A program made the translations under genes and the position numbers. Source: Acidobacteriota bacterium (GTDB taxonomy: Bacteria; Acidobacteriota; UBA6911). From it: DNA of 64,000 nucleotides. Within the stretch, counting starts at the first letter, position 1. Every line of letters starts with the position of its first letter. Location of the stretch: the NCBI GenBank assembly GCA_031271905.1, contig JAISUT010000010.1:1-64000 (forward strand), written 5' to 3'. Below, piece after piece: positions 5,942 to 50,476 of this stretch. Below the pieces are notes generated by a model that ran no database searches, had not been told where the DNA came from, and saw only the letters and a program-made list of their open reading frames with translations.

Positions 5942-7312
5942 ATGGGATGCATGGGACGCGGCGTCACGGTGATCGGCGGAGGCTTGGCGGGGGTGGAGGC
6001 GGCATGGCAGGCGGCGCGCCACGGCGTCCCGGTGCGCCTCTACGAGATGCGCCCCGCAGTCATGACCCCGGCGCACTCCACCGACCGCCTCGGCGAGCTG
6101 GTGTGCAGCAACTCGCTCAAGTCCGACCAGCCGGAGACCGCGCCCTGGCTCCTCAAAGAGGAGTTGCGGCGGCTGGGCAGCCTGTCGATGCGCGTCGCGG
6201 ACGAGGCCAGGGTGCCTGCGGGGCACGCGCTGGCGGTGGACCGCGAGGAGTTCAGCCGCCGCCTGACCGCCGCCGTCGAAGCCGAGCCCGGCATCACGGT
6301 CGTGCGCGAGGAGGTGCGGGAACTGCCCCCTCCCCCGGCACAGGCGTCCTCGGCGAACTCCGCGCCGGACGAGGCTGCGGGCGTCACCGTCGTCGCCTCC
6401 GGCCCGCTGACCTCGCCCGCCCTGGCGGCGTCCATCGCGGAGTTCGCCGGAAGCGAGAACCTCTACTTCTACGACGCCATCTCCCCGATCGTCGCCGCAT
6501 CGTCGCTCGACACGGCGAAGCTCTCCGCCGCCTCGCGCTACGGCAAGGGGGGGCGGGACTACCTGAACGCCTTCCTCTCGAAGGAAGAGTATCTAAGTTT
6601 CTATGACGCGCTGATCCGCGCCGAGTCGGCGCCGTTGCGCGACTTCGAGGAGCCCCGGTTCTTTGAAGGCTGCCTGCCGGTGGAGGAGCTGGCACGGCGC
6701 GGGATCGACACGCTCCGCTTCGGCCCCATGAAGCCCGTGGGGCTTGACGACCCACGCACCGGGCGGCGCGCCTACGCCGCCGTGCAACTGCGCCTGGAAA
6801 ACCAGATGGCGGACAGCTACAACCTCGTGGGCTTCCAAAACCATTTGAAGTTCCCGGAGCAGCGGCGCGTCTTCCGCATGATCCCGGGGCTGGAAGGGGC
6901 GGAATTCCTCCGCTTCGGGCAGATCCACCGCAACTCCTACATCCACGCCCCCCGGCTGCTCGGGACGACGCTGCAGGCCAAGGCGCGCCCCGACCTTTTT
7001 TTCGCCGGACAGCTCTGCGGGTGCGAGGGGTATGTCGAGGCGGTCGCGACCGGCCTCTTGGCAGGGGCGAACGCCGCCCGGGTGGCGCGGGGGTTGCAGC
7101 CCGCCACGCCGCCGGAGGCGACCGCGCTCGGCAGCATCGCGCGCTACCTGGCCGCGCCGCAGGGGGATTTCCAGCCCGCGAACATCACCTTCGGGCTGAT
7201 GACCGGCGCCCCGGCGGAGATCCTCGCCATACGCGACAAGAAGGAGCGCCGGCGCGCGCAGACGCGCCACGCGCTCGACACCCTGCGACGATGGATGGAC
7301 GCGCCGCCATGA
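5942..7312 (+). CDS. trmFO: Folate-dependent tRNA (uracil-54) methyltransferase TrmFO
   Basis: 456 residues (start at 5942 or 5951; neither has a strong ribosome site). It forms 5-methyluridine-54 in tRNA using 5,10-methylene-tetrahydrofolate and FAD. The sequence shows the FAD site VIGGGLAGVEAA at the N-terminus, the conserved CSNSLKSD segment, YFYDAISPIV, FEGCLPVEELARRG, LRFGPMKPVGL and a C-terminal GLLAGANAA. Length matches the family. Its stop overlaps the next start as ATGA at 7309-7312, coupling it to xerC, an arrangement seen in many bacteria. It uses the same folate pool as the MetF reductase at 35048. Confidence 0.93.
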   Translation: MGCMGRGVTVIGGGLAGVEAAWQAARHGVPVRLYEMRPAVMTPAHSTDRLGELVCSNSLKSDQPETAPWLLKEELRRLGSLSMRVADEARVPAGHALAVDREEFSRRLTAAVEAEPGITVVREEVRELPPPPAQASSANSAPDEAAGVTVVASGPLTSPALAASIAEFAGSENLYFYDAISPIVAASSLDTAKLSAASRYGKGGRDYLNAFLSKEEYLSFYDALIRAESAPLRDFEEPRFFEGCLPVEELARRGIDTLRFGPMKPVGLDDPRTGRRAYAAVQLRLENQMADSYNLVGFQNHLKFPEQRRVFRMIPGLEGAEFLRFGQIHRNSYIHAPRLLGTTLQAKARPDLFFAGQLCGCEGYVEAVATGLLAGANAARVARGLQPATPPEATALGSIARYLAAPQGDFQPANITFGLMTGAPAEILAIRDKKERRRAQTRHALDTLRRWMDAPP

Positions 7313-38870: not shown

Positions 38871-39433
38871 TTCCCCCAAAGCATGTGGAAGACGTGCCCG
38901 AGCTCCGGCAGGATGATCTCGTCCATCGCCAGTTCGCAGGCGCGGGGACTCCCCGGAAGGCAGAACACCACCTTCCCGCCGATGGAGCCTGCGAGGGCGC
39001 GCGACAGGATGGCGGCGCTTTTGACCTGCGTGTAGCTGAGTTGCGTGAAAAGCGCGTTGAACCCGGGCAGTTCCTTGTCGAGCAGGTCGCGCACCGCCTC
39101 GATGGTCACGTCGGTCGGCGACAAGCCCGTGCCCCCCGTGGTGATGATCGCGTGGACGTCCGGGTCTTGGGACAGCTTGCGCACTGCGGCGCGCAGGCGG
39201 GGCTTGCCGTCCGGCAGCAGTTGGCGCGACACGACCGCGTGCCCCCGCTTCTCCAGCAGGCTTTGGATGACGTCGCCCGACTTGTCCGGCTCCGGGGGGG
39301 GGGCCTGCGCGGACTTGGCGGCCTTCAAGGCGTTCGCGCGCGAAGTCGAAAGCGTGATGACGGCGGCGTTGACGGATGCCACGGCGTGCTTCTTGTGCTC
39401 CACCGTGGGATTGCTGGTTTTCTTTCCTGCCAT
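38867..39433 (-). CDS. Molybdopterin adenylyltransferase/MoaB-like protein
   Basis: 188 residues; AAGGAG lies 5 bases before the ATG at 39433. The MoCF-binding fold shows AAVITLSTSR near residue 25, the GDVIQSLLEKRGH helix, the core ITTGGTGLSPTDVTIEAV and LPGSPRACELAMDEIILPELGHVF. It activates molybdopterin with ATP for metal insertion. A charged N-terminal extension of about 20 residues precedes the fold. Translationally coupled to the downstream phosphatase gene. No molybdoenzyme is encoded in the window. Confidence 0.85.
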   Translation of the reverse strand: MAGKKTSNPTVEHKKHAVASVNAAVITLSTSRANALKAAKSAQAPPPEPDKSGDVIQSLLEKRGHAVVSRQLLPDGKPRLRAAVRKLSQDPDVHAIITTGGTGLSPTDVTIEAVRDLLDKELPGFNALFTQLSYTQVKSAAILSRALAGSIGGKVVFCLPGSPRACELAMDEIILPELGHVFHMLWGK

Positions 39434-39771
39434 GGCGTCTCCTTGTTGGGCTGATGGACCTGCGACAACGGGTTATCGTATCCGAGGGACGCCGCCGCCG
39501 CAACATGGTTGTTGCCATCCCCGGGCCATCCCCGGCCAGCCCCCCCGCACGGCGCGCGTATAGGAAATTTGTTCAAATGCGCCTCGGGTTGAACTCCCGC
39601 GCATCTGGCGTTAAAATTAAACCAACTTACGCGCCGTTTCCTGCGGCGCCGGTCGCGCAACAACCCGTCGAGCGCCAGACGACGTCAACTGAACCTTCGC
39701 CGAACCTGCACAACGTCCCAGCAAGACTCCGGGGGATATTTGACGCGACTCGAAAAAAAGGAGTGTGTCCA
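39434..39771. other. Intergenic region between the MoaB-like gene and the porin
   Basis: Divergent gap of 338 bases. A single TATCGTAT at 39476-39483 resembles the paired sites at 48621-48659. An AT-rich stretch (TTAAAATTAAAC near 39610) is the only promoter-like segment. I see no gene in the gap. Confidence 0.35.
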
Positions 39772-40872
39772 ATGATGAAAAAAATGATTCGATGCGTGTC
39801 GCTTCTGGCGGTCGTCGCAGGCGTGGCGCCGGCGGCGGTCGCACAGGAGTTGCCCGAATGGGTGAGGAAGCTGAATCTATCCGGCGACGTGGGCGTGCGG
39901 ACGGAGTTCGTCCGCGACGAAAAGGCCGCCAACCCCTACGACCGGGTGCGCGAACGGGGCCGGTTCCGCCTGGGGATGGAGACGGCCCCGGTGGACAAGG
40001 TGAAGGTCGCCTTCGGCGTCGAGACCACCGGGGTCAACCCGACCTCGGCATGGGTGGACTTCTCCGAGTTCCAGAACCAGCAGTTGTTCCTGTCGCACGC
40101 CTCCTTGCAGTATGCGCCCACCGGCTACCTGACCGTCTCCGGCGGCAAGCTCAAGAGCAACATCCCCTATTGGAGGCCGACCCAACTGATCTGGAAGAAC
40201 GACGTCAACCCCTACGGCGTGGCGGCGAACTTCAAGGCGAAGCTCCCCGGCGACGCCGCTTTCTTCGCCAACGCGGGACTGTTCGCGCTGAACGAGTACC
40301 GCGACTATGACGACAACGGCACGCAGGCGGATCTGCCGATGAACGCGATCTTCATCGTGCAGCCGGGCGTCGAGGTGAAGCGGGGGCGGTTCAGCCTCAA
40401 GGGCGCCTTCGCCGTCCAGCAGTTCAGCCTGGTGAACCACGACGCCTCGGGTTGGATCAAAGCCGACCGCTCCTACACGCTGCTCAACCCGGACTGGGAC
40501 GTGAGCATCCTGAACGTGGCGGGCCCTTACCGCGTCAACTTCAGCGGGGAGTTCTCCCACAACGTCAACGGCAGCGCCGACGGCGACGCCGGCGCCTACC
40601 TTCTCTCAATGGGTTTCGGCGACGAGAAGATCGACAAATTCAAGGCGTGGCAGGTCGCGGCGGCGTATCGCCGGGTCGAGGAGGACGCCATTCCGGTCGG
40701 CATGGGGCAGACCAGCGCGTACAACGCCGAACCGGGGAAGGGCTGGGAGTATTCCTTCGGCCTGGGGCTGCTCAAGGCGCTGTCGTTCAACGCCACCGTC
40801 TACCACATGACGAACCTCGATGGCGAGCGTCCGCAACTGATCGGGCAGTTTGACTTGGTCTACAAGTTCTAG
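39772..40872 (+). CDS. Outer-membrane beta-barrel porin-like protein
   Basis: 366 residues; AAGGAG lies 8 bases upstream. A signal peptide (MMKKMIRCVSLLAVVAG...AVAQ) precedes a mature protein rich in alternating aromatic and polar residues (LSGDVGVRTEF, RGRFRLGMETA, VKVAFGVETTG). The C-terminus is FDLVYKF, a terminal Phe barrel signature recognised by the Bam machinery. It probably forms a porin in the outer membrane; the solute is unknown. It is followed at once by a hairpin shared with the convergent VWFA gene. Confidence 0.8.
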   Translation: MMKKMIRCVSLLAVVAGVAPAAVAQELPEWVRKLNLSGDVGVRTEFVRDEKAANPYDRVRERGRFRLGMETAPVDKVKVAFGVETTGVNPTSAWVDFSEFQNQQLFLSHASLQYAPTGYLTVSGGKLKSNIPYWRPTQLIWKNDVNPYGVAANFKAKLPGDAAFFANAGLFALNEYRDYDDNGTQADLPMNAIFIVQPGVEVKRGRFSLKGAFAVQQFSLVNHDASGWIKADRSYTLLNPDWDVSILNVAGPYRVNFSGEFSHNVNGSADGDAGAYLLSMGFGDEKIDKFKAWQVAAAYRRVEEDAIPVGMGQTSAYNAEPGKGWEYSFGLGLLKALSFNATVYHMTNLDGERPQLIGQFDLVYKF

Positions 40873-44711: not shown

Positions 44712-46324
<1,613 letters not shown>

Positions 46325-46328
<4 letters not shown>

Positions 46329-46750
46329 GGGGCATACTCCCAAGGGTTGACGCACTCGAGTCCTACGCCAGCGAAATCTTTCGTATTGCGCGTCGCGAGA
46401 ATGGCGCCCCGCGCAAGACAGATCGCGGCGATCTGGGCGTCGATCACGCTGATCGGCTTTCCCGATGTGCGCCTAGCCGCGCAAATCCCGGCATACATCT
46501 TCGCGGCTGCGGCATCGAACGGAAACAACCGACCAAATACGTGTTTCGAGAAGAGTTCTTCATACCGTACGGCGAGGTGCTTCTTCCTTTTGCCGTCCGG
46601 CATCAATGCGATGCCGAGAAAGATTTCCGCCTGCGTTATCGTCGTCGTACACAAGGTAGGCACATCCTGTGCGTCAAGCCATGCGATGACCTTCTCTTCC
46701 GGCTCCGATTTAGAGACTTCGGAGAGGACATTCGTATCCAAGACGATCAT
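46325..46750 (-). CDS. PIN-domain toxin (VapC/FitB type)
   Basis: 141 residues. The PIN fold has its acidic metal site: D in [12 protein letters not shown] in TQAEIFLG, D in [11 protein letters not shown] and N/D in TRNTKDF. Family members are Mg-dependent RNases acting on tRNA or rRNA, blocked by the partner antitoxin. ATGA overlap with the antitoxin gene (46747-46750) on one side and GTGA overlap with the NifA-like gene on the other, so all three are translationally coupled. Confidence 0.87.
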
Positions 46751-47016
46751 GCGAAATCCACTTTTTTCAAATGTTCGTCCGGGTATTCGTCACGCGCCGG
46801 AATTTTCAGCCTGTCGCCGTCGCCGTCAAACAAAGCCGCGAGAGACGAGCCGAATCCTTCCGTGGATTTCACGGGTGTCATTTCCCACGGGTGCTCGACC
46901 GCATATGCGATGAGCATTCTGACTTGGGATTCGACTGACCGTCCGCTTGCTTTCGATATAACCTTTAGTTTTTCTTTTGTTTCTTCGTCAATGTTTCTAA
47001 TCGTCAGTGTAGCCAT
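46747..47016 (-). CDS. Ribbon-helix-helix antitoxin (FitA type)
   Basis: 89 residues from the ATG at 47016 (an ATG two codons earlier is too close to the ribosome site GGGAGA). The N-terminal TLTIRNIDEETKEKLKVISKASGRSVESQVRMLI is a FitA-type RHH DNA-binding unit. The acidic C-terminal half should wrap the toxin. The complex normally represses its own promoter, which here would also control the downstream sigma-54 activator. Confidence 0.83.
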   Translation of the reverse strand: MATLTIRNIDEETKEKLKVISKASGRSVESQVRMLIAYAVEHPWEMTPVKSTEGFGSSLAALFDGDGDRLKIPARDEYPDEHLKKVDFA

Positions 47017-47092
47017 CGACATTCTCCCGCCTGCTTAATGATTGCATTACGCTAGCACGACATGGGGTGCCATGCAAGCGGGAAAGCGGAAC

Positions 47093-47240: not shown

Positions 47241-48059
47241 TTAGAAGCTCTTGGTGAAGTTGATGCCGAACCAGTAGTTGGCGGAGTCGCCCTCGCCATA
47301 GCTATACGTGTCGCGGATGGCGCCGGACAGTATGGTCGAAAGGTGGAAGCTGGGCGTGATGGAGACGCCGTGCTTCAAGGTGATCGGCAGGCCGACGTTC
47401 AGGGTGAAGTCGTTGAACTTCGTCTTTTCTTCCACACCCCAGTAGCCGACGTTGTACGCCGGGCCGCCGACGCCGAAGTTGGCGCTCAGGTCGAGGCTGA
47501 TGTACTCGTCGTCGCTCCACGCGCCGATCTTCTCGAACGTGTGGCCGACGCCGAGCGCGAGGTAGCTGCCGTCGATGGTGTCGATGTCGCGGTACCAGGT
47601 GACCGACGGGTTCAGCGGCACGTTGAAGCTCAGGCCGCCGTAGATTTCGGTGGTCGCACTCACACCGACGGTTCCCGCCGTCAGATCGACATCAACTGTT
47701 CCGGGGAACGTGTAGTGGATGATCCCCAGCGAGAAGCTGACCTTGTCGGTGTTCGGGATCGCCTTGGAATAGTCGAGCGAATAGTCGATCTCGTTGAATT
47801 CCCCTGCCTTGTAGCCCGTATAATCCGTCAGGGGCATGTTGGCCCACACGGCGCCCGTGAAGCCCCAGGCGCTGCCGGACATGTTGTACTGCAACACGCT
47901 CTTGTTGTCCAGGTTCATGCCGCGCCAGACGTACTTGTTGAAATAGTCCACGGAAGCCGACGCGCTGAACGTAGGCTCGTCCTGAGCCATCAGCGTTCCC
48001 GTACACGCCATCAACAGAACGCCCAGCAAACAGCAGCTTTTGATCATTCTTGACTTCAT
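47241..48059 (-). CDS. TorF-family putative outer-membrane porin
   Basis: 272 residues; AAGGAGGA lies 8 bases before the ATG at 48059. Signal peptide (SCCLLGVLLMACTGTLMAQ), then a beta barrel: SASVDYFNKYVWRGM at the start and YWFGINFTKSF with terminal Phe. TorF proteins are small outer-membrane barrels of unknown solute. A consensus sigma-54 promoter on this strand at 48339-48354 gives a long leader of about 265 bases that includes element E. The divergent sigma-54 activator at 48809 is the obvious candidate regulator. Confidence 0.82.
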   Translation of the reverse strand: MKSRMIKSCCLLGVLLMACTGTLMAQDEPTFSASASVDYFNKYVWRGMNLDNKSVLQYNMSGSAWGFTGAVWANMPLTDYTGYKAGEFNEIDYSLDYSKAIPNTDKVSFSLGIIHYTFPGTVDVDLTAGTVGVSATTEIYGGLSFNVPLNPSVTWYRDIDTIDGSYLALGVGHTFEKIGAWSDDEYISLDLSANFGVGGPAYNVGYWGVEEKTKFNDFTLNVGLPITLKHGVSITPSFHLSTILSGAIRDTYSYGEGDSANYWFGINFTKSF

Positions 48060-48092
48060 TTAACACATCCTCCTTGGTTGTTTACACCTACA

Positions 48093-48215
48093 GGGAACCT
48101 CTAAAAACCCCGGACGCTGCGTTGCGCCTTGGTCGAAAATGCCCATTCGCCCTCGGCAAACTCCGCTTTTCGACCTGCGGCAGACGCCTTGTCTGCGAGG
48201 CTTTTAGAGGCCCCC
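48093..48215 (-). repeat. MITE-like element family M1, copy E (long form, 123 bp)
   Basis: Ends are GGGAACCTCTAAAAACC and CTTTTAGAGGCCCCC, with perfect flanking TACA repeats (48089-48092 and 48216-48219). The central palindrome (TCGAAAA...TTTTCGA) is intact. It is inserted 33 bases upstream of the porin start codon, within the predicted leader, so the porin message would begin with a large hairpin. Confidence 0.85.
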
Positions 48216-48338
48216 TACATTCACAACAAACTCAAAACCCTCTCCAGCACTCGCCGGGATTTGACGCCCGGGCCAGCGGAAAAGTTCAAAACGACCAATA
48301 AACTCGCGGCCCTTCAACAACCGTCCCGCGTTCTTTAT

Positions 48339-48354
48339 TGCAAGATGCGTGCCA
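48339..48354 (-). promoter_or_regulatory. Sigma-54 promoter for the TorF-type porin
   Basis: On the minus strand the sequence is TGGCACG-CATC-TTGCA, a full match to TGGCACG-N4-TTGCW. The start of transcription would be near 48326, leaving a leader of about 265 bases to the porin ATG at 48059. Confidence 0.8.
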
Positions 48355-48770
48355 CAGAAAACTATATAATAAGCATCTTTTTTATTTTCAATTGATTAAC
48401 CGATTCGCGACTACTGGGGATTGCTGCGTTTTCCCTACATTTTCGTTCCTTCACCATCGGCGTCTTTCATTTTTGCATTCACCCCATTCCCCCCGCAGAG
48501 GCGCGGGGCGCATCCTCGTCGTTTGTCGCAGGGGCGTCGTCCGGCTTTGGGGTTCGGCGACGCGAAACGACGCTGCGCGCGCCCGCGTCCCGTCCCTTGG
48601 CGGCTTGCCGACGGAAACAATATCGTATGATATTTGCGCTCCTATTACCATATCGTATGTGGAGAAATTTCATCCCGGCGCCGCCGCCACGAGCCGCAGC
48701 CCTTCCCGAACCCTTGTTTGAAGCGGGTCGCGCATGCGTCCGGGCGTTTGCCGCCCTCCCCGGGCGGAAC
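48355..48770. promoter_or_regulatory. Shared upstream region of two divergent sigma-54 promoters, with paired TATCGTATG sites
   Basis: The region holds no gene. TATCGTATG occurs at 48621-48629 and 48651-48659, spaced exactly 30 bp (about three helical turns). Each sits in a small palindrome (AATATC-GTAT-GATATT and CATA-TCG-TATG). They lie 112-150 bp upstream of the plus-strand sigma-54 promoter, the usual distance for enhancer sites of NtrC-type activators. The segment 48355-48480 is AT-rich. Confidence 0.6.
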
Positions 48771-48786
48771 TGGCACGACCTTTGCT
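48771..48786 (+). promoter_or_regulatory. Sigma-54 promoter for the activator gene at 48809
   Basis: TGGCACG-ACCT-TTGCT is a full match to TGGCACG-N4-TTGCW. Transcription would start near 48797, giving a very short leader to the ATG at 48809 (or 48818). Self-activation by the encoded protein is the simple reading. Confidence 0.78.
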
Positions 48787-48808: not shown

Positions 48809-50476
48809 ATGTGTCGCATGGCTGATCTGGTTGATCTCAAGACTGACGTGACTCCGGGGGTGGGCGAAGGGGGACGCCTCGTCCAGTTGTTGTTCGATCT
48901 CTCGCACGCGGTGGGCGCGCACTTGGACGTCGAACCGTTGCTGCGCTCCTTCATCGAGACGCTCCGCAGGCGGACGGAGGCGGGCCGTGGGGTCGTGACG
49001 CTGGTCAACCTGCAAAACGGCATGATCGAGACCGAGTTGACGGTCGGCGTCCCGCTTGCGGAGAAGTCGGGGGGGCGCTGCCGGCTGGGCGCGGAGATCA
49101 TCGACAAGGTGATCGAGCACGGCCGCCCCGCCGTGTTGACGGCGGCGTCCCGCAAGGTGGTGTTCTTCGACGACGGCGAACCCCCGTCGGGCGAGGGGGC
49201 GAAGGGGCTCGTCGAGGAGCTTGCGCGGTGGAACAAGCCGCCCGCCTTCATCTGCATGCCGTTGCGCAACGCCGCAGGCGAAGTCCTCGGCGCCTTGGGC
49301 GTAGACCGCCTCTTCATGGAAAGCCAGCGCGGCGCCGGCGGACTCGACTTCGCCGGGCTCGTGGGCGAAGTGACGCTCTTGGGGCGGTTGGCGCGGCTCT
49401 TGGCGCAGGCGGTGGAGAGCCGCAGGCGGATGCGCGAGCGCGAGCGCCGCCTTGAGCGCGAGAAGGATCTGCTGCAGAACGAGATCAAGGATCATTTCCG
49501 GCAATCGAACATCGTCGGCAGCTCCCACGCCTTCCGGCACATCTACAAATCGATCAAGCAGGTCTCCTCGAGCAAGGTGCATGTGTTGATCACGGGCGAG
49601 CCGGGCGTGGGCAAGGAGCTTATCGCCGAGGCGATACACAAGGGCAGCCCGCGCGCGGAGCAGCCGTTCATACGGATAAACCTCGCCTCGCTGCCGGAGG
49701 ACATGATCGAGGGGGAGCTTTTCGGCACGGTCCGCAACACCTTGACGGGGGCGTTCACGCAGGGGCAGAGCCTTTTCGACGCGGCGCGCGGCGGGACGCT
49801 CTTCCTGGACGAGATCGGCAACCTCCCCATGGCGATGCAGGCGCGCCTCTTGCAGGCGTTGCAGGAGAAGGAGTCCCCCTTCCCCGCGAAGGGCGGGGAG
49901 GATGGCGCGGGCGCCCCTGCCGACGTGCGCATCATCTCCGCCACCAGCCGCAACTTGGAGGAGCTGGTGCAGCAGTTCCAATTCCGCATGGACCTCTACT
50001 ACCGCCTGAACCTGTTCCCGATCTACGTCCCGCCGCTGCGCGAGCGCAAGTCGGACATCCCCATACTGGCGAACCACTTCGTCGCGCGCTACGTCCGCAA
50101 GCACGGCAAGCGCATCCAAGGCATCTCCGCGACCGCGATGGACATGATGCTCCGCTACCACTGGCCGGGGAACATCCGCGAGATGGAGAGTTACATCGAG
50201 CAGGCGGTGCTGCTGTCGGTGGACGGCATCATCTACGGCTACCACCTCCCGCCGGCCCTGCGCACCCCGCAACAAGAGGGGGGCGCGCCGCAGGGGAGCC
50301 TGAAGGACTCGCTGTCGGCGTTGGAGCGCAAGATCATCACGGACGTCCTGAACTCGGTGCAGGGGAACGCGGTGCGCGCGGCGCAGACGCTGGGCATCAG
50401 CGAACGGCGCATACGCCAGAAGATGGCGCGCTACCAGATCGACCCCAAGCCGTTCCGGGCCGCCGCCGGGAGGTAG
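48809..50476 (+). CDS. Sigma-54-dependent activator with a divergent GAFTGA loop
   Basis: 555 residues from the ATG at 48809 (GGGGA upstream; 48818 is possible). An N-terminal GAF-like sensor (about 20-205), a basic coiled linker (RRRMRERERRLERE), then an AAA+ domain with Walker A GEPGVGKE and Walker [12 protein letters not shown]. The sigma-54 contact loop reads NTLTGA (in ELFGTVRNTLTGAFTQG) in place of GAFTGA. The C-terminal Fis-type helix-turn-helix is VRAAQTLGISERRIRQKM. It is preceded by its own sigma-54 promoter and shares its upstream region with the TorF-type porin gene, its probable target. Confidence 0.85.
   Translation: MCRMADLVDLKTDVTPGVGEGGRLVQLLFDLSHAVGAHLDVEPLLRSFIETLRRRTEAGRGVVTLVNLQNGMIETELTVGVPLAEKSGGRCRLGAEIIDKVIEHGRPAVLTAASRKVVFFDDGEPPSGEGAKGLVEELARWNKPPAFICMPLRNAAGEVLGALGVDRLFMESQRGAGGLDFAGLVGEVTLLGRLARLLAQAVESRRRMRERERRLEREKDLLQNEIKDHFRQSNIVGSSHAFRHIYKSIKQVSSSKVHVLITGEPGVGKELIAEAIHKGSPRAEQPFIRINLASLPEDMIEGELFGTVRNTLTGAFTQGQSLFDAARGGTLFLDEIGNLPMAMQARLLQALQEKESPFPAKGGEDGAGAPADVRIISATSRNLEELVQQFQFRMDLYYRLNLFPIYVPPLRERKSDIPILANHFVARYVRKHGKRIQGISATAMDMMLRYHWPGNIREMESYIEQAVLLSVDGIIYGYHLPPALRTPQQEGGAPQGSLKDSLSALERKIITDVLNSVQGNAVRAAQTLGISERRIRQKMARYQIDPKPFRAAAGR

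Follow-up and report, generated by a model that had tools for sequence, protein, structure and literature searches.

Two sigma-54 promoters that face away from each other, one towards a porin gene and the other towards a gene for a regulator of the sigma-54 activator (bEBP) type, raise the question of which protein switches them on and under what conditions. The initial annotation of the window (the whole 64,000-nucleotide stretch analyzed here) proposed that the adjacent activator drives both itself and the outer-membrane barrel as a self-contained unit. The promoters, the enhancer-like sites and the co-control of a barrel with a sigma-54-type regulator were all supported by our analysis (Table 1). 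Self-containment was not, as the operator is common to a genome-wide nitrogen regulon, and self-activation fared no better, the adjacent regulator having NTLTGA in its sigma-54 loop while two GAFTGA-intact paralogs exist. We think it quite probable that the divergent promoters belong to a nitrogen-limitation regulon in which a paralog would be the activator and the divergent regulator would temper the response.

Table 1. Features of the divergent promoter region and its surroundings; positions are those of the 64,000-nucleotide window.
Feature	Position	Strand	Basis or remark
Second NifA-like GAF-AAA+-Fis regulator, GAFTGA intact	44712..46355	-	Translation (GHEKGAFTGA), Pfam
VapBC-type toxin-antitoxin pair	46325..47022	-	Between porin and second regulator, same strand
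Outer-membrane beta-barrel (porin), predicted; distant TorF/Gcw_chp relative	47241..48059	-	Model matches of relatives, AlphaFold model
125-bp interspersed hairpin repeat	48092..48216		Within predicted porin mRNA leader
Porin sigma-54 -24/-12 promoter, TGGCACGCATCTTGCA	48339..48354	-	Exact pattern match; estimated +1 ~48328
Paired operator P, minus strand TGCAAAAATGAA-N18-AACGAAAATGTA	48436..48477		30-bp spacing; 27.5 bits
Paired operator R, AACAATATCGTA-N18-TACCATATCGTA	48616..48657		30-bp spacing; 23.6 bits
Regulator sigma-54 -24/-12 promoter, TGGCACGACCTTTGCT	48771..48786	+	Exact pattern match; estimated +1 ~48797
Divergent GAF-AAA+-Fis regulator, NifA-like architecture	48818..50476	+	Start 48818 or 48809; listed ORF from 48734
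Codons for NTLTGA, replacing the sigma-54-contacting GAFTGA loop	49736..49753	+	Structure alignment

Both promoters match TGGCACG-N4-TTGCW exactly and in full, as annotated, with GG and GC 10 bp apart. They are the only exact matches in the 64-kb window, lie 416 bp apart and fall together within 448 bp. Across the 3.40-Mb genome, a pattern search returned 11 exact matches in total, against ~0.8 expected by arithmetic on base composition (66% GC, that of the window). The genome encodes RpoN (PF04552, 189 bits), and its amtB promoter, TGGCACGCATTTTGCA, is identical to the porin promoter except for 1 base in 16. Further exact sites lie upstream of amtB, lipoprotein genes, a flagellar gene and genes for an NtrC-type response regulator and a TRAP-type binding protein, all identified from the translated sequence. 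With the standard offset to the transcription start, the predicted leader is 269 nt for the porin and 12-21 nt for the regulator. The listed frame of the regulator opens upstream of its own -24 box, so that the usable starts are the two given in Table 1.

Upstream of each promoter lies an operator element, found by comparing the upstream regions of porin homologs within the genus, that consists of a TACA-N4-TGTA dyad occurring twice, with starts exactly 30 bp apart. Both pairs in the window have two dyads at this spacing, 100-160 bp upstream of the -24 box. Operator R, whose first base is 155 bp upstream of the -24 box of the regulator promoter, reads AACA-ATAT-CGTA / TACC-ATAT-CGTA and holds most of both copies of TATCGTATG, a sequence with two occurrences in the window, at positions 48621 and 48651, against 0.04 expected. 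This repeat had been described as two copies 30 bp apart, each in a palindrome, 112-150 bp from the plus promoter. Spacing and distance were correct and palindromes do exist, but the true palindrome is TACA-N4-TGTA and begins 5 bases before TATCGTATG, which is thus the right-hand part of each dyad. Palindromes centered on TATCGTATG were dropped because the promoters of amtB, P-II and the porin can be aligned in the TACA-N4-TGTA register alone. Operator P, on the porin side, has the same 30-bp spacing and had been overlooked; it starts 123 bp upstream of the -24 box of the porin promoter. Both offsets depart from the norm of 131-135 bp in other genomes, and the window dyads are weak matches, with 12/16 consensus bases per pair.

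The operator was also assessed outside the genus. When GTDB contigs were scanned with an alignment of the porin, 80 loci emerged, many of them in Planctomycetota (Phycisphaerae, Sedimentisphaerales), where most have the order porin-amt-glnK and a sigma-54 site ~110 bp before the porin. Two-thirds of the held-out promoters outside the genus (22/33) carry a pair at spacing 30 that scores at least 13/16, compared with a mean of 1.6 promoters at other spacings, and in 19 of these 22 the pair starts 131-135 bp upstream of the -24 box. A weight matrix trained solely on those 22 promoters ranks operators P and R first and second in the 64 kb; the third site scores 3.4 bits, a gap of 20 bits between the window pairs and the next-best site. 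In a pattern search of 199 Acidobacteriota genomes, ~23 pairs were found, versus 1 for a reversed control. The argument relies on the held-out promoter and matrix tests; an earlier training set had been picked by eye, and its p-values are therefore circular. The second amt promoters of G004 and G008 (loci L134 and L132) have single good dyads only, so the paired-operator rule is not universal.

The genes that share this operator point to its physiological role. In this genome, the pair stands upstream of amtB (twice) and P-II, and a genome search for the paired pattern returned exact matches at the present locus, amtB and P-II only. The glutamine synthetase III gene (glnN) has a pair with one mismatch upstream, and the second amt gene is preceded by a copy with two mismatches; P-II and glutamine synthetase III were identified from the translated sequence and not by a model search. 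Beyond this genome, the pair precedes porin-amtB-glnK operons, both among Acidobacteriota and among Planctomycetota. Perfect pairs adjoin NifA-like genes in six other Acidobacteriota genomes, directly in front of the gene in five and at its other end in the sixth (G097). On this distribution, the operator is part of a genome-wide nitrogen regulon that includes amtB, P-II and glutamine synthetase III, and since it is common to ammonium-uptake genes here and in distant bacteria, both divergent promoters most likely respond to nitrogen shortage. The genome also has nifH (449 bits; locus L264, ~6400-6700, contig C53 of G000), with a sigma-54-like TGGCACACCGCGTGCA and a GACA-ATTC-TGTC dyad upstream. 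We rejected the idea that this operator also controls nifH, as no 30-bp TACA pair at the nif promoter reaches 12/16; its dyad is possibly a sister operator for regulators of the 44712-46355 type. Two further sites were seen in other genomes. At L267 (G116), a pair lies beside a NifA-like gene and before a transporter, judged MFS-like from its sequence, that has its own sigma-54 site, and at L276 (G027) an exact pair, TACAGAAGTGTA..TACACTTCTGTA, forms one long palindrome before an ATPase-like gene and may be unrelated to nitrogen.

The porin fits this regulon by virtue of its relatives. In these, it is the first gene of porin-amtB-glnK (AmtB 423 bits, P-II 84 bits, Pfam), and the presence of the pair together with these operons means that the porin is best read as a nitrogen-assimilation gene, separated here from amtB, which lies on another contig. 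The minus-strand promoter had been described as facing a TorF porin. A beta barrel of the outer membrane is supported by the AlphaFold model (pLDDT 86; OmpG, FapF and Tsx are among the best PDB matches), but the family name is not borne out directly, as searches of Pfam and NCBIfam return no model for the window protein even at E<=10, TIGR02001 and PF09694 included. The TorF/Gcw_chp label reaches it only through 50%-identical relatives, one of which reaches 28 bits with PF09694, above the cutoff of 24, and 39 bits with TIGR02001, below the cutoff of 47. The protein thus resembles Gcw_chp/TorF porins as a distant relative, as a predicted barrel and in the amtB-glnK link of its relatives, and differs from them in falling below every model and in being unlinked from amtB in this genome.

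Three NifA-like GAF-AAA+-Fis proteins, 39-50% identical to one another, are encoded in the genome: the divergent regulator, its neighbor at 44712-46355 and a third on contig C30. Both regulators of the window have TIGR01817 as their best NCBIfam model and stay below its NifA cutoff of 528.85, at 320.3 and 496.4 bits. The divergent regulator has an intact frame of 552 codons, a Sigma54_activat AAA+ domain (PF00158, 183 bits) with Walker A/B present (GEPGVGKE), and a C-terminal Fis HTH (PF02954, 34.5 bits, cutoff 22). The GAFTGA of a sigma-54 bEBP activator is missing from it; NTLTGA, which retains the critical Thr, takes its place in an alignment to the NtrC-family structure 4l4u and the Nif-specific regulatory protein 9qq6. 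An ortholog search across the class found only one copy, in G001, which is the closest relative (48-50% identical), adjoins a P-II gene, has the loop DPFAGA, and is shorter, with no C-terminal HTH in its reading frame. The divergent regulator stands on a long branch of 1.4 changes per column.

The paralogs present a different picture. The 44712-46355 protein has GAFTGA, AAA+ and Fis HTH, and is 58% identical to regulators divergent to porin-amt-glnK at L191, L199 and L200. The C30 protein is conserved across the class with GAFTGA intact, and its type adjoins gltB/gltD, recognized from sequence, in G003, G004 and G005; related genomes with the operator have the C30 type in place of the divergent-regulator gene, which is absent. 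The porin operon of Planctomycetota has a C30-type gene upstream of it and, in three loci, a 44712-type gene divergent to it. Among the 18 loci in which a NifA-like gene adjoins the porin operon, GAFTGA is exact in 17 and reads GAFTDA in one (L186). Because NifA-like genes lie beside both perfect pairs and porin operons, this family is the likely cognate regulator, and within it C30 or the 44712-46355 neighbor appears to be a better candidate activator than the divergent regulator. The recognition helix starts with T-E-R in the C30 type, S-E-R in the divergent regulator and T-P/A-R or S-T-A-R in the 44712 type. TGTC-type half-sites, read by eye, occur ~29 bp apart near the porin promoter at L191, L199 and L200, and the nif promoter here also has a GACA-N4-TGTC dyad. 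The correlation, drawn from few cases, suggests C30-type specificity for the divergent regulator. The TGTC type of the dyads and the spacing of ~29 in place of 30 also hint that the operator and the 44712-type regulator change together.

Could the divergent regulator nonetheless be functional as a sigma-54 activator, binding the pair and driving itself and the porin in a self-contained manner? Its gene is adjacent and has an operator in front, like the bEBP genes with perfect pairs in other Acidobacteriota, and AAA+, Walker A/B, Fis HTH and the loop Thr are all present. A possible exception is Desulfovibrio DVUA0100, whose loop is altered at three positions (GVATGV) and which is predicted still to activate sigma-54 promoters (PMC4641369), and NTLTGA may therefore not be dead. 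Loop changes in bEBPs mostly abolish activation, however (PMC3162934), and the PspF loop tolerates only Phe-to-Tyr (PMC2941729); the replacement of GAFTGA by NTLTGA thus makes activation unlikely. The closest relative, too, is loop-defective and on a long branch, amtB, P-II and glnN use the same operators, and operator-bearing relatives without this gene have the C30 type. We conclude that the divergent regulator is probably not the activator of these promoters, and regard self-activation as improbable. A coincidence of -24/-12 and repeat matches is scarcely credible: each element is short, yet exact promoter sites exceed expectation genome-wide, with two of them within 448 bp, an independently trained matrix places the operators at the top of the window, and both the held-out spacing test and the phylum-wide count against the reversed control contradict it.

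Two other readings leave both sigma-54 promoters, or at least that of the porin, to the paralogs. The divergent regulator may act as a GAFTGA-less bEBP at sigma-70 promoters of other genes, in the manner of Caulobacter or Rhodobacter NtrC. The Caulobacter protein has no GAFTGA, functions at sigma-70 promoters and is a repressor of its own operon (PMC10274813); TyrR, DhaR and HupR are further precedents (PMC3162934). We hold this to be conceivable but doubtful, the single sigma-70-like site in 44.4-50.7 kb being what chance would give. The regulator may instead be decaying, its loop having degenerated as its function is lost, so that only porin control by paralogs matters. The long branch, the loss of the loop and the shortened sole close relative, with no C-terminal HTH in frame, would agree with decay; against it stand an intact frame of 552 codons, a Fis HTH and AAA+ motifs that are likewise intact, and a well-formed promoter and operator of its own, and we consider it fairly unlikely.

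In the reading that we prefer, a nitrogen-limitation regulon activated by a paralog, each promoter would have its own enhancer, in which two TACA-N4-TGTA dyads, set 30 bp or about three helical turns apart and ~120-155 bp upstream of the -24 box, would load a bEBP oligomer that contacts the sigma-54 polymerase through a DNA loop. The cognate activator would most likely be a GAF-AAA+-Fis NifA-like bEBP with GAFTGA, either C30 or the 44712-46355 protein. During nitrogen shortage, this activator would switch on the porin, as a putative outer-membrane partner of AmtB, along with amtB, P-II, glutamine synthetase III and the divergent regulator. The loop-defective regulator, in turn, would most plausibly temper the response at the same operators, through competition or mixed oligomers. 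A brake on the shared operator is a tentative proposal, which combines the self-repression of a GAFTGA-less bEBP with the hetero-oligomers of paralogs. It is perhaps tempting to speculate, with considerable reserve, that Acidobacteriota and Planctomycetota share a nitrogen regulon run by a NifA-like GAF bEBP through the 30-bp-spaced TACA-N4-TGTA operator, to which, in the present lineage, an operator-driven, loop-disabled duplicate adds a brake that acts on the ammonium, porin and glutamine synthetase genes.

In kind, such an arrangement of sigma-54, bEBP and nitrogen control is ordinary. In enterobacteria, the activator dyads of NtrC are paired at a distance of about three helical turns and lie upstream of -100, and the NifA UAS is TGT-N10-ACA. 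As candidate operators, neither the NtrC box (TGCACCA-N3-TGGTGCA) nor this classical UAS has a match near the promoters, in 48.3-48.8 kb. The locus resembles NifA systems in the GAF-AAA+-Fis layout, in the TGT/ACA letters of the half-sites and in the presence of nifH in the genome, whereas its half-sites are inverted with N4 spacing and the targets are amt, P-II and glutamine synthetase. It shares with the enterobacterial NtrC/sigma-54 systems of glnA and glnK-amtB the -24/-12 promoters of nitrogen-assimilation genes and the paired upstream dyads, but the operator is TACA-N4-TGTA in place of the NtrC box TGCACCAnnnTGGTGCA (PMC8743547), and the regulator has no receiver domain. GAFTGA-less bEBPs (Caulobacter and R. 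capsulatus NtrC, TyrR, DhaR, HupR) have the same fold with a lost or altered sigma-54 loop, and the two NtrC proteins are also linked to nitrogen control; in those two, however, the loop is deleted, while here it is substituted, and the gene here lies behind a sigma-54 promoter with an operator common to nitrogen genes and loop-intact paralogs. Azotobacter VnfA1, VnfA3 and AnfA are likewise paralogous bEBPs with common targets, which probably form hetero-oligomers; they co-activate, and the part of that account available to us describes no loop-defective member (PMC9542535).

As far as the searched literature goes, the paired TACA operator, its conservation in two phyla and the loop-defective paralog are undescribed. 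For nitrogen control in two large phyla, most of whose members are uncultured, they offer a specific operator, a promoter geometry and a candidate regulator, at promoters that lack the textbook NtrC and NifA sites, and they link an otherwise unannotated outer-membrane barrel with ammonium uptake. The divergent regulator, moreover, provides a natural case for the role of a bEBP that has lost its sigma-54 loop and kept its DNA-binding domain.

Rfam gave no match in 44-51 kb, and the hairpin repeat in the porin leader (-74 kcal/mol, z -6.6), of which the genome has at least 40 copies that are ~90% identical, could attenuate the porin mRNA. Downstream, vapBC encodes a PIN toxin and a FitA-like antitoxin, and the ORF of the second regulator overlaps the end of vapC. 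Between the porin and vapB, a scan for terminators gave no terminator-like site on the minus strand; with porin, vapBC and second regulator following one another on the minus strand, read-through is possible. A second porin-like gene (Porin_5, PF16930) lies ~7 kb away at 39376-40872 on the plus strand.
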